Assembly (NCBI GenBank): GCA_003280025.1
Contig: QCGD01000004.1
Span: 1 to 64,000 of the forward strand
Origin: Prochlorococcus sp. AG-363-P06
GTDB lineage: Bacteria; Cyanobacteriota; Cyanobacteriia; PCC-6307; Cyanobiaceae
Length of the DNA stretch: 64,000 nt
Direction: 5' to 3'
The number at the start of each line of letters is the position of its first letter. Positions within the stretch are counted from its first letter, which is position 1. Under the pieces are notes generated by a model that had not been told where the DNA came from, ran no database searches, and saw only the letters and a list, made by a program, of their open reading frames with translations. Shown one piece after another: positions 4,619-47,300 of this stretch. The translations under genes and the position numbers were made by a program.

Positions 4619-5005
4619 TATCTTGAACCCTCGACTAATTTCTTATAAAGATCTTCTGAAATAGGTTTCATAGTCAAAAATAGAAGTTGCCTACAATTTA
4701 ATTATTTTTATCCTTCTTATTGGTTACAAGCTATACGAATAAAAACTCTAATTAATTGGTATAGACTATATCTATTATTAGGTTTACTTATAAAGTATCA
4801 AGCAATACTTAATAGATTTAATCACATTCAATAAACCTTGTACTGGAATCGGGTTTGGAAGAAAAATAGCCATTTAATGACATTTAACACATAACCCCTA
4901 AATACAAAAAACCAATCGGTTGAACTTTTCACAAAAACAGTTGTTGGCATAATTGTATTGATTGACAGTAGATCTAAGGATAAGAAGAAAAAAGATTACT
5001 GATAT
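4619..5005. other. Intergenic, no convincing gene
   Basis: About 390 bases with no convincing ORF from a normal start codon on either strand. A plus-strand frame from about 4650 to 4830 reads like protein but has no ATG, GTG or TTG, so it may be a decayed gene. The region contains the first copy of a 17-base direct repeat (4953-4969). Confidence 0.5.
4953..4969 (+). repeat. Direct repeat copy 1 (TTGTATTGATTGACAGT)
   Basis: Exact 17-base match to 5314-5330, 361 bases apart. The two copies flank the minus-strand ORF 5006-5269. The repeat contains TTGACA, which resembles a -35 element, but no good -10 follows at the right spacing. Confidence 0.75.
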
Positions 5006-5313: not shown

Positions 5314-5330
5314 TTGTATTGATTGACAGT
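5314..5330 (+). repeat. Direct repeat copy 2 (TTGTATTGATTGACAGT)
   Basis: Exact second copy of 4953-4969. In this copy the internal TTG (5323-5325) is a possible start codon for a 56-codon ORF. The similarity continues weakly downstream (GATCTAA in copy 1 and CAATCTAA here). Confidence 0.75.
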
Positions 5331-5562: not shown

Positions 5563-5573
5563 GGTGTAACACT
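5563..5573. promoter_or_regulatory. AGTG-N3-CACT-like half site after the RHH gene
   Basis: GGTGTAACACT differs by one base from the AGTGTAACACT palindrome in the promoter of the same gene. It lies immediately downstream of its stop codon. The paralogous gene at 46723-47103 has a related element at the same distance from its stop. Confidence 0.45.
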
Positions 5574-5574
5574 A

Positions 5575-5940
5575 TTAATGTGTATTATTTTCTTTTTGAT
5601 TCATAATTTTTTTAAACAACTTAAACTCAATAAAGTCGTGGATCATTTTTATATCTTCTTTTAGAGTTTTTTTATTTAAAGTAGAGATATCAAAATTATT
5701 TGATATATCATTATAAAATGATAATTTTTTCTGTTTTTGAGGCTCGTTTAAAGAGTCATTAATTAAAGAAGATTTATTAGAAAATGAATTATTTAGTAGG
5801 CCTCTAGACCTTAATGCTTCTTCAACTAATATGCCAGTTACTTTTGATTGACTATAATTGTTATCTGTTGATATTTTTTCAATAATGCTATGAACCTCTT
5901 CACTAGGTAAAAACCCAATTCTTTTTCTATGAGAGGGCAT
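5575..5940 (-). CDS. Ribbon-helix-helix-like DNA-binding protein, 121 aa (paralogue of 46723-47103)
   Basis: The N-terminal 52 residues fit a ribbon-helix-helix (MetJ/Arc/CopG) fold: a basic strand (KRIGFLP), helix A (SEEVHSIIEKI) and helix B (SQSKVTGILVEEALRSRGLL). The rest is a hydrophilic tail with no recognised domain. A paralogue at 46723-47103 shares MP..KKR.GF.P at the start and ILVEEAL..RGL.N at the end of the fold. Upstream lies a double palindrome and a divergent membrane microprotein, an arrangement shared with the paralogue. A self-regulating repressor is the simplest reading; the target is inferred, not shown. Confidence 0.65.
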   Translation of the reverse strand: MPSHRKRIGFLPSEEVHSIIEKISTDNNYSQSKVTGILVEEALRSRGLLNNSFSNKSSLINDSLNEPQKQKKLSFYNDISNNFDISTLNKKTLKEDIKMIHDFIEFKLFKKIMNQKENNTH

Positions 5941-5955
5941 AACTCTGACAAAAAT

Positions 5956-5988
5956 AGTGTAACACTTGCTTATTATAAGTGTTGCACT
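5956..5988. promoter_or_regulatory. Double palindromic operator candidate
   Basis: AGTGTAACACT (5956-5966) and AGTGTTGCACT (5978-5988) are each AGTG-N3-CACT palindromes, with centres 22 bases apart, about two helical turns. They lie between the RHH gene and the divergent microprotein gene. The same architecture and spacing recur at 47120-47152. Two RHH dimers side by side would fit this geometry (inference). Confidence 0.6.
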
Positions 5989-6016
5989 ATATTATGTTTA
6001 AGTCAATTAAATTTTT

Positions 6017-6181
6017 ATGCATTTATTGATATTTCCTGCAGGATTTATACTTTGGTACCTGGCTTATAAAGCGAAACCAATAACTAATGATGAGGTAACT
6101 AAACTATGGGAAAAGGATAATCTAGCAAAGAGGAGCAAACTTCTAAATATTCTTAAAGAAAGTTTTAGTACCAATGAATAG
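6017..6181 (+). CDS. Single-helix membrane microprotein, 54 aa
   Basis: ATG 6017 to TAG 6179-6181. One N-terminal membrane helix (LLIFPAGFILWYLAY) is followed by a charged helical tail (KLWEKDNLAKRSKLL). It is divergent from the RHH gene and shares its palindromic promoter. The gene in the equivalent position beside the RHH paralogue (47181-47300) is also a one-helix peptide. The last 20 or so bases before both starts include ACTATATT and TTAAGTCAAT. Function unknown. Confidence 0.55.
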   Translation: MHLLIFPAGFILWYLAYKAKPITNDEVTKLWEKDNLAKRSKLLNILKESFSTNE

Positions 6182-6533: not shown

Positions 6534-6689
6534 ATGAACTTAAGGGATAGAGGTATAACGGTGGGAGATTTACTTATAATTTTAATTATTATATTTTCAA
6601 CAATTTTTATAATTAAAAAATATAATCATAAAAACCAATCTAGTCTAAGTAACGTAAATACAGAAATAATCTCCTTACATAGTTTTTAA
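6534..6689 (+). CDS. Single-helix membrane microprotein, 51 aa
   Basis: ATG 6534 to TAA 6687-6689. A short polar N-terminus (MNLRDRGITVGD) precedes a strong membrane helix (LLIILIIIFSTIFII) and a KK-containing polar tail. The polar start, hydrophobic core and polar tail suggest a genuine thylakoid or plasma-membrane microprotein. It ends head-on against the next minus-strand ORF with essentially no gap. Confidence 0.5.
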   Translation: MNLRDRGITVGDLLIILIIIFSTIFIIKKYNHKNQSSLSNVNTEIISLHSF

Positions 6690-6839
6690 TTACTCAGAAA
6701 ATGGAAAGACGTTCGGATTTCCATTACAAACTCTATCAAGCATAATTTCTTTACTAGCCTTACTCACTAAGCATTCATTAGGTTTTATATTTCTTAAGTA
6801 ATTATCTACTTTATTTTTTATATTAGTATTTTCTTTCAC
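6690..6839 (-). CDS. Hypothetical protein, 49 aa, GTG start
   Basis: The only reasonable start is GTG 6839, because an in-frame stop lies just upstream. The C-terminal half (NECLVSKASKEIMLDRVCNG) with two cysteines looks like a folded small protein rather than noise. No ribosome binding site is visible. Function unknown. Confidence 0.4.
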   Translation of the reverse strand: MKENTNIKNKVDNYLRNIKPNECLVSKASKEIMLDRVCNGNPNVFPFSE

Positions 6840-6911: not shown

Positions 6912-7079
6912 TTAATATTTTACGCGAGATGTCTCCCATTTAAGATTATCTTTTAGATCACTGAGATCATTTGATATTGATACTAATGATACCATTTGAA
7001 GAATTTCAGATTTATTAAGTCTTTCAGAAACAATAAACTTATTAAGTATATCAAGGACATAGTTATCATTAACATTCAT
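6912..7079 (-). CDS. Hypothetical helical protein, 55 aa
   Basis: ATG 7079 (a second ATG is at 7075 in another frame) to a stop at 6912-6914. Composition is that of a small soluble helical protein (DILNKFIVSERLNKSEILQM, then DLKDNLKWETSRVKY). It belongs to the run of microproteins between 4.4 and 7.8 kb. No family recognised. Confidence 0.5.
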   Translation of the reverse strand: MNVNDNYVLDILNKFIVSERLNKSEILQMVSLVSISNDLSDLKDNLKWETSRVKY

Positions 7080-7391
7080 TATTATCAATTATATGTATTT
7101 ATATAACTTAGTAAAAATAATTAAAAATATGAATGAAATGAACATATAAGAAATTAAATTTTACATAAAAAATCTTTTTTTCAATAATTACTTAATCAAT
7201 AAAATAAATAATGATATCCGTAAAGAATACATTAGAGAATAATAAAGCCATTGCAATTATTTAGTATGCTCTATGGAATATTATTTAGGATGATATTCAT
7301 TCTGTTTATTTTAGGCGGTAAAAACAATGAATTATATTCCAAAATATAATTACCATTTAAATGGTAGATTAGAGAATAATAAAAATAAATT
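7080..7391. other. Intergenic with a 16-base direct repeat
   Basis: No supported gene. ATTAGAGAATAATAAA occurs exactly at 7231-7246 and 7368-7383, 137 bases apart; the second copy lies just upstream of the next gene's ATG. The long minus-strand frame here (7271-7498) is a low-complexity hydrophobic shadow of the plus-strand gene. Confidence 0.5.
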
Positions 7392-46700: not shown

Positions 46701-46721
46701 AGTGCTGAACTAATCAACACT
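46701..46721. repeat. Hairpin after the second RHH gene
   Basis: AGTGCTGA and TCAACACT, separated by a five-base loop, pair with one G-T wobble. The element begins one base after the stop codon of the RHH gene and echoes the AGTG/CACT units of its promoter. No T-run follows. Confidence 0.5.
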
Positions 46722-46722
46722 T

Positions 46723-47103
46723 TTAATACTTCTCGTATCTTTGTAACATTTCTTGGAACTTAAGGAATGATAAAAATTTTTTATAAGTTTTTAAATCAAG
46801 AGTTTCTTTATTATTTTCATTGTTAAAAATTCTTTTTGATGAATCTAATTGAGCTCTGCTAATACAAGTATTAACATCTGAAGAATTGCTAGTTAAACTC
46901 TCATATTCTTTTTTTTTATTTATATATAAAAGATTATCCTTTCCTGTCTCGATATTAAATAGACCTCTTTGAGCCAAAGCTTCCTCTACTAGTATGCTTA
47001 TAATTTTTGAATTGCTTAAATTATTTTCAAAGCTCAATTTATCTACTATTTTCATTACTCCGTCTCTAGGAATAAAACCAACTCTTTTTTTCTTTGTAGG
47101 CAT
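46723..47103 (-). CDS. Ribbon-helix-helix-like DNA-binding protein, 126 aa (paralogue of 5575-5940)
   Basis: The N-terminal 52 residues repeat the RHH pattern: strand KKRVGFIP, helix DGVMKIVDKLSFENN, helix NSKIISILVEEALAQRGLF. The tail is unrelated in sequence to that of the other copy but is similarly hydrophilic. It has the same neighbours as the first copy: a divergent membrane microprotein, a double palindrome between them and an AGTG-type element after the stop. Two duplicated cassettes 41 kb apart are therefore likely. Confidence 0.65.
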   Translation of the reverse strand: MPTKKKRVGFIPRDGVMKIVDKLSFENNLSNSKIISILVEEALAQRGLFNIETGKDNLLYINKKKEYESLTSNSSDVNTCISRAQLDSSKRIFNNENNKETLDLKTYKKFLSFLKFQEMLQRYEKY

Positions 47104-47119
47104 TTAAAACTTAACTTAA

Positions 47120-47152
47120 AGTACAGCACTTGACTGTCACCAGTGTTGCACT
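47120..47152. promoter_or_regulatory. Double palindromic operator candidate, second locus
   Basis: AGTACAGCACT (47120-47130) and AGTGTTGCACT (47142-47152) repeat the arrangement at 5956-5988, with the same 22-base centre spacing. The second unit and the following TATATT are identical in both loci. Confidence 0.6.
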
Positions 47153-47180
47153 ATATTCGGATTAAGTCAATCTTGCTCCA

Positions 47181-47300
47181 ATGGTAGTACTCATAACTTT
47201 GCTTTTTTGTTATCTTGGTTATCTTTTTTACTCGTCAAAACATGAGGTTTCTTTAATGGATAAACACCTTATAGATCATGTTGAAAATGACACCGATTAG
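47181..47300 (+). CDS. Single-helix membrane microprotein, 39 aa
   Basis: ATG 47181 to TAG 47298-47300. One N-terminal membrane helix (VVLITLLFCYLGYLFY) precedes a charged tail with several His and Asp. It occupies the same divergent position relative to the RHH gene as 6017-6181. The sequence before both starts includes TTAAGTCAAT. Function unknown; a small membrane effector under RHH control is a hypothesis. Confidence 0.5.
   Translation: MVVLITLLFCYLGYLFYSSKHEVSLMDKHLIDHVENDTD

Follow-up and report, generated by a model that had tools for sequence, protein, structure and literature searches.

Our analyses of a 64-kb stretch of Prochlorococcus DNA (the window, G000:C4:1-64000; the source genome measures 1.69 Mb) revealed a compact cassette in which a gene for an RHH-like regulator and a divergent gene for a one-helix peptide flank two closely spaced palindromes. 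We consider it likely that this cassette comprises an RHH repressor that is autorepressed, acts locally, and has the divergent membrane microprotein as its dedicated target. The control DNA common to the two genes has hardly changed across the genus, and thus the regulator very probably represses its own gene as well as the neighboring one. Most genomes of the genus retain the cassette, usually in two copies, despite the few transcription factors of Prochlorococcus, given as usually <30 in the excerpts of one survey (PMC1858693) used here. In a main ocean primary producer, it provides a regulator whose dedicated target is obvious, and its predicted operators, promoters, and microprotein can be tested jointly. 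No description of the regulator–peptide module was found in the open-licence literature of PubMed Central, in agreement with the suggestion of an earlier sequence-only reading of this DNA that it might not have been described before.

The regulator of the first locus, P1, is a 121-aa protein encoded on the minus strand (positions 5575 to 5940; stop codon 5575 to 5577, coding 5578 to 5940), and the divergent peptide has 54 aa and is encoded on the plus strand (6017 to 6181). Both open reading frames (ORFs) lie where the sequence-only reading had put an RHH-like gene and a one-helix peptide. Also present as it described are two AGTG-N3-CACT palindromes between the genes, the operator-like sites O1 (5978 to 5988; AGTGTTGCACT, which in the orientation of the regulator reads AGTGCAACACT) and O2 (5956 to 5966), with their centers 22 bp apart. 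A third site, O3 (5563 to 5573), is located directly 3′ of the P1 stop codon. It had been called a half site; its position stands, but O3 matches the full palindrome at 7/8 letters and counts as a third, conserved site. A second cassette, with the paralogous regulator P2, is found at 46.7 kb, and a third paralogue, P3, lies outside the window.

Exact AGTG-N3-CACT occurs three times in the window, at O1, O2, and 47142 to 47152, compared to 0.29 copies expected, and none of 100 shuffles reached three. With one mismatch allowed, 14 sites were present versus 10.4 expected, which is no overall excess; each of the two cassettes accounts for three of them, six in all (among them O3 of the first locus as well as 47120 to 47130 and 46701 to 46711 at the second). 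Elsewhere in the own genome, exact AAGTG-N3-CACT is found at nine places, all inside coding frames (seven according to the ORF list of our script and two by reading the printed sequence). Because these nine places fall inside genes, the exact sites look local, and exact non-coding sites in this genome are confined to the cassette. A wider regulon, as judged by exact sites, was rejected on the same count. Across the genus, an exact palindrome pair (gaps of 0 to 30 bp allowed) was detected in 121 of 200 genomes, compared to 5 of 200 for a reversed control pattern, and in 52 of the 66 near-complete genomes. Among the matches listed, every pair has an 11-bp gap, which corresponds to centers 22 bp apart.

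We examined conservation over distinct loci, with four duplicate rows left out. These loci are not a random sample: they comprise the best-scoring 29 per paralogue, those of the own genome, and chosen loci, namely 20 stretches, most of which were picked for a missing exact pair or a divergent protein, and 18 further stretches picked as second or third paralogues, three of which are P1. A tandem at 22 bp with at least 14/16 letters was evident in 51/51 P1 loci (26 exact, 23 with one letter changed, and 2 with two) and in 41/42 P2 loci, compared to 0/2,550 and 0/2,100 shuffles, respectively. Indeed, AGTGCAACACT itself stands at O1 in 48/51 P1 loci and 41/42 P2 loci. The third site (at least 7/8 letters, no more than 45 bases from the stop codon) was found in 49/51 P1 and 40/42 P2 loci and in 0/32 P3 loci, a score reached by only 0.6% (P1) and 0.7% (P2) of shuffles, and O3 forms a conserved island within a variable region.

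The conserved palindromes might instead form an RNA hairpin, acting as a terminator or attenuator. In a generic scan, the two locus 1 palindromes together came up as a single 15-bp stem closed by a 7-base loop (1 stem versus 0.1 in shuffles), and the match of O1 to the complement of O2 is, on average, slightly better (8.6 of 11 letters in P1 and 8.8 in P2) than that of O1 to its own complement (7.9). However, the centers of the two sites are never complementary (0/51 P1 and 0/42 P2 loci), and the arms alone account for the match. Further, no such stem was listed at locus 2, the third site stands alone downstream, no Rfam family was found there, and transcripts from both putative start sites would exclude the full stem. 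As the center triplets of the two sites are not complementary, we set the hairpin reading aside as very improbable and return to the palindromes as candidate operators.

Two promoter-like pairs face each other between the genes and are overlapped by the palindromes. In the orientation of the regulator, the region upstream of P1 reads TTGACTTAAATCAAATATAGTGCAACACTTATAATGTGCAAGTGTGACACT, and that of P2 is similar. The putative regulator promoter on the minus strand consists of a −35-like TTGACT (6001 to 6006) and a −10-like AACACT (5978 to 5983), the latter within O1. The pair TTGAC[T/A]-17 bp-AACACT is present on the regulator strand in 51/51 P1 loci; in P2 loci, TTGAC at 17 bp was found in 42/42 and AACACT in 41/42. 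On the plus strand, the putative peptide promoter consists of a −35-like TTGCTT (5966 to 5971), which adjoins O2, and a −10-like TATATT (5988 to 5993), and its 16-bp spacer contains O1. TTGC-N2-16 bp-TATATT is conserved on the peptide strand in 51/51 P1 loci, and at P2 the peptide side has TTGACT in 38/42 and TATATT in 40/42 loci. Thus, O1 both contains the regulator −10-like box and sits in the spacer of the peptide promoter, while O2 touches the peptide −35-like box. We infer both promoters from conserved sequence and spacing. A generic promoter scan of locus 1 gave 8 matches compared to 5.1 ± 2.1, no clear excess, and neither proposed locus 1 promoter was among them; at locus 2, the peptide promoter TTGACT-16-TATATT was the best match of the scan in that stretch, at 10/12 letters.

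These data suggest how the cassette might work. The RHH repressor would dimerize, and its dimers would bind the two palindromes, which are separated by two turns of the DNA helix. The bound sites would cover the regulator −10 box together with the spacer and the −35 edge of the peptide promoter, and since they cover both promoters, one bound complex would shut both. The predicted result is that the regulator represses both itself and a single-pass membrane microprotein, the presumed output of the cassette. Upon some signal, repressor activity would be lost and the peptide released to act at the membrane. The third site, past the end of the gene, suggests looping or local retention of dimers: it may allow a loop to form or raise the local concentration of the repressor. 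An autoregulated unit controlling a small membrane peptide was also what the sequence-only reading had considered plausible, and the anatomy and conservation, with the tandem on both probable promoters and a module that recurs, argue for it.

The peptide is itself conserved. A peptide frame with the shared motif was present in 51/52 P1 entries, and the remaining entry is cut by a contig end. The third codon position is the most variable in the peptide frames, and the median dN/dS, obtained by simple counting on non-independent pairs, was 0.19 for the P1 peptide (1,046 pairs, 50/51 peptides) and 0.23 for the P2 peptide (322 pairs, 26/39 peptides, those of one length), showing that the peptide is under purifying selection. 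A hydrophobic stretch extends from the N terminus, with a mean hydropathy of at least 1.6 in 47/51 P1 and 36/39 P2 peptides; the P1 peptide of the window, at 1.56, is just under this value. In a profile search of 30 genomes, the P1 peptide gave one strong match in each of six own-genus genomes and nothing convincing in the 24 other genomes. Outside the genus, the matches of peptide profile A3 did not exceed 15.5 bits and mostly fell within long frames, and profile A4 gave one match with an E of 0.002 (in genome G429). The P1 and P2 peptide families are weakly alike, with a common YLxYxxK stretch (hhalign P of 1.5e-4 over 16 columns, probability 52%), as expected if the cassette duplicated whole.

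The cassette at 46.7 kb is an old paralogue of the first. It encodes P2 (126 aa, minus strand, 46723 to 47103), with an exact O1 (47142 to 47152), an O2 with one mismatch (47120 to 47130), an O3 with one mismatch past the stop codon (46701 to 46711), and the peptide promoter TTGACT-16-TATATT on the plus strand (47130 to 47157). The sequence-only reading had the whole set recurring here. Regulator and palindromes do recur, but the second peptide (plus strand, 47181 to 47300) is truncated to 39 aa and stops before its homologous tail, which continues beyond stop codons. More broadly, a P2 peptide frame with the motif was found in 39 of 45 P2 entries, counting the truncated copy of the window; two loci were entered twice, giving 43 loci, and in the 4 loci that lack a motif frame, inspection revealed broken frames or no usual start. 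The P2 peptide profile was strong in four of six own-genus genomes, and in two of these four, including that of the window, the match has internal stop codons. As the P2 peptide is broken or truncated while the regulator persists, it is therefore dispensable there. In genome G015, the peptide frames of both cassettes are unbroken. We also observed one locus (L301, G025:C2:160800-164800) with two tandem cassettes, in which an extra P2-like copy adjoins P1 and each regulator has its own divergent peptide.

To gain insight into the regulator fold, we analyzed an AlphaFold2 model of P1. The model contains confident helices at residues 13 to 27 and 31 to 45 (mean pLDDT of 92 to 96 for residues 11 to 40); the helices that follow are less confident, and the monomer has no strand. 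The predicted fold is RHH-like. Structure lists were led by Arc, CopG, and RHH antitoxins, with ORF56 and AmrZ prominent, at weak scores and with unrelated helical chains mixed in. The best VIA-align Z was 4.1, from a list also holding unrelated chains, and the first-ranked Foldseek hit was a VapBC chain, with no match at an E of 0.001 or better. A relative of solved structure was sought by sequence and rejected, as the sole match (E of 0.26) was unrelated. In Pfam, no model reached the cut-off for the regulator, the best hint being RHH_5 at an E of 0.11 in 5 of 21 members; NCBIfam gave no match for the three regulators tried, and the two peptides of the window had none in Pfam, NCBIfam, or PADLOC. 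Neither regulator nor peptide could be assigned to a named family with the libraries searched.

The antitoxins among the structure matches raise the question of a toxin–antitoxin-like pair, as the sequence-only reading had proposed, in which the peptide would be a membrane toxin restrained by the RHH protein through either repression or contact. The peptide has a small size and a single hydrophobic stretch, and at locus 2 it decays before the regulator, as toxins can. Type II toxin–antitoxin systems with an RHH antitoxin, such as AtaRT, KacAT, and TacAT, are small autoregulated modules, and they resemble the cassette in having an RHH DNA-binding partner. However, the cassette genes are divergent in the loci examined rather than one operon, a hydrophobic peptide replaces the soluble enzyme, and there is no sign of mobility: phages gave no match for P1, P3, or the first peptide, and viral contigs and plasmids none for P1. 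Phage or plasmid origin was rejected on these searches as well, and PHROGs returned only weak matches to unnamed families (best E of 0.023). PADLOC, like NCBIfam, gave no match and Pfam none at cut-off, and near-universal presence in the genus under purifying selection also speaks against a toxin. None of the toxin–antitoxin features open to test was found; little supports this proposal, and we judge it quite improbable.

An autorepressor with a dedicated target remains the preferred reading, and it has precedents among characterized RHH proteins. CopG of plasmid pMV158 and Arc of phage P22 bind a symmetric element or elements on their own promoters and repress themselves. P1 resembles them in its predicted fold and in the symmetric elements on its putative promoter, but it is longer, with further helices, and chromosomal, with a third site past the stop codon, and its cassette has a divergent membrane-peptide target. 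The nearest functional precedent is TrcR (All0854) of Anabaena PCC 7120, described in the portions of the source used here as an RHH autorepressor whose site overlaps its own −10 box and which adjoins, and represses, the small gene asr0855 (PMC10272220). Like TrcR, the regulator is a predicted cyanobacterial RHH autorepressor next to a small gene that it would repress, and the TrcR overlap may have its counterpart in the putative −10 box AACACT, which in every P1 locus sits within O1 and is spaced 17 bp from TTGAC[T/A]. TrcR, in contrast, controls many genes, whereas here exact non-coding sites are confined to the cassette, and its C terminus is unlike that of P1.

A motif resembling O1 had in fact led us to ask whether the regulator is simply the Prochlorococcus form of TrcR, with the same targets. 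The letters of the sites are similar (ACACTTGTATTA in TrcR versus ACACTTGTAAT in a number of P1 loci), both proteins are RHH-like with a site over a −10 box, a putative one in P1, and both adjoin a divergent small gene, which is asr0855 for TrcR. However, comparison with the TrcR proteins from loci found by the published motif gave no sequence relation (hhalign probability 0.2, P of 0.27), the TrcR motif was absent from 14 own-genus genomes in that search, and TrcR is said, in the part of the TrcR study drawn on here, to be missing in Prochlorococcus (PMC10272220). As the TrcR proteins are unrelated in sequence, we dropped membership, which is exceedingly improbable, and kept the functional analogy. 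The best reading is that the regulator would act in the manner of CopG or Anabaena TrcR, while its sequence sets it apart from TrcR. FciC, by the partial account used here (PMC3877281), is a predicted RHH protein of 55 to 67 aa from the CA4-A island of marine Synechococcus. It is likewise a small predicted RHH protein in picocyanobacteria, but it differs in its length and in its location within a chromatic acclimation gene island.

The regulators are widespread in the genus. A P1 query matched at least one of the paralogues in 185 of the 200 genomes from the genus (66/66 of the near-complete ones), and P2 and P3 queries did so in 87/87 near-complete genomes each. Counted from the tables, P1-grade matches (E under 1e-20) were present in 61/66, P2-grade matches in 72/87, and P3-grade matches in 81/87 near-complete genomes. 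P1-grade matches are thus missing from 5/66 and P2-grade matches from 15/87, many of them drafts, so that absence of a paralogue in these genomes is not proven; among the most divergent genomes, some, for example G204 and G211, apparently lack P2. The cassettes are nearly but not strictly universal in the genus. In a quick tree built from few columns, P1, P2 (save one long-branch row), and P3 formed separate groups, and as each group spans much of the genus, the paralogue split probably predates most of it. In the wider family, regulator profile A1 matched 80 of 300 genomes, in 4 of 40 genera.

P3 is the best conserved of the three paralogues (own genome C4:119454-119822, plus strand; L005:1955-2323). 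Its upstream region has a single AGTGTTACAAT-type site adjoining TTGACA and no membrane peptide. Among the best 80 of 162 P3 records, those with names are Prochlorococcus, for example MIT 9314 and MIT 9302, or single cells labeled Synechococcaceae. The P3 loci seen also share a conserved 67-aa divergent ORF that starts ∼120 to 230 bp upstream. The sequence-only reading had proposed that palindrome pairs and a one-helix ORF should recur beside homologues, as they do across P1 and P2 loci, and that homologues lacking both would speak against it. Such homologues exist outside the P1 and P2 clades: the tandem was found in 0/32 P3 loci, most of which have a single 7/8 site on the upstream side, and 26/26 homologues in other genera, for some of which start codons were guessed, have neither a tandem (best 11/16 letters) nor a peptide-like frame. 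Inside the two clades the palindromes are almost never lost, and the P2 peptide is broken in the 4/43 loci noted above.

This distribution bears on whether the peptide might be a membrane-bound anti-repressor, capturing its own RHH regulator at the membrane to yield a positive-feedback switch. There is one peptide type per regulator paralogue, P3 lacks both the tandem site and the peptide, and the tail of the P2 peptide is acidic (median net charge of −6). However, the tail of the P1 peptide is close to neutral (median of −1), a P1/P2-like C-terminal helix is retained by homologues from another genus that have no neighboring peptide, and an interaction between peptide and regulator is purely hypothetical. 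We therefore think an anti-repressor role unlikely. A broader proposal, in which the membrane peptide captures its own DNA-bound repressor, the RHH protein directly reads the state of the membrane (energization, lipid, or light–dark), the third operator loops, and Prochlorococcus retained two of these switches as most of its other regulators were lost, is, taken jointly, distinctly unlikely. In the parts of one MED4 study used here (PMC5082946), a gene named copG, given with no locus tag and so not equated with these paralogues, was one of the most strongly enriched transcripts in a sudden dark shift but had its highest transcript level by day in the diel cycle.

Several features of the surrounding DNA were also evident. 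Three more small ORFs adjoin the P1 peptide (window positions 6534 to 6689, 6690 to 6839, and 6912 to 7088), one of which encodes another small hydrophobic peptide, and look-alikes of the three lie next to P1 in G015 with their order preserved (L306: 686-844, 524-685, and 294-461). The string TGTATTGATTGACAGT is present twice, 361 bp apart, near small ORFs (window positions 4954 to 4969 and 5315 to 5330). At one locus (L300:1128-1201), a tRNA-Met gene is convergent with the regulator, with the third site in between, and the same tRNA-like sequence was seen by eye at several other loci.
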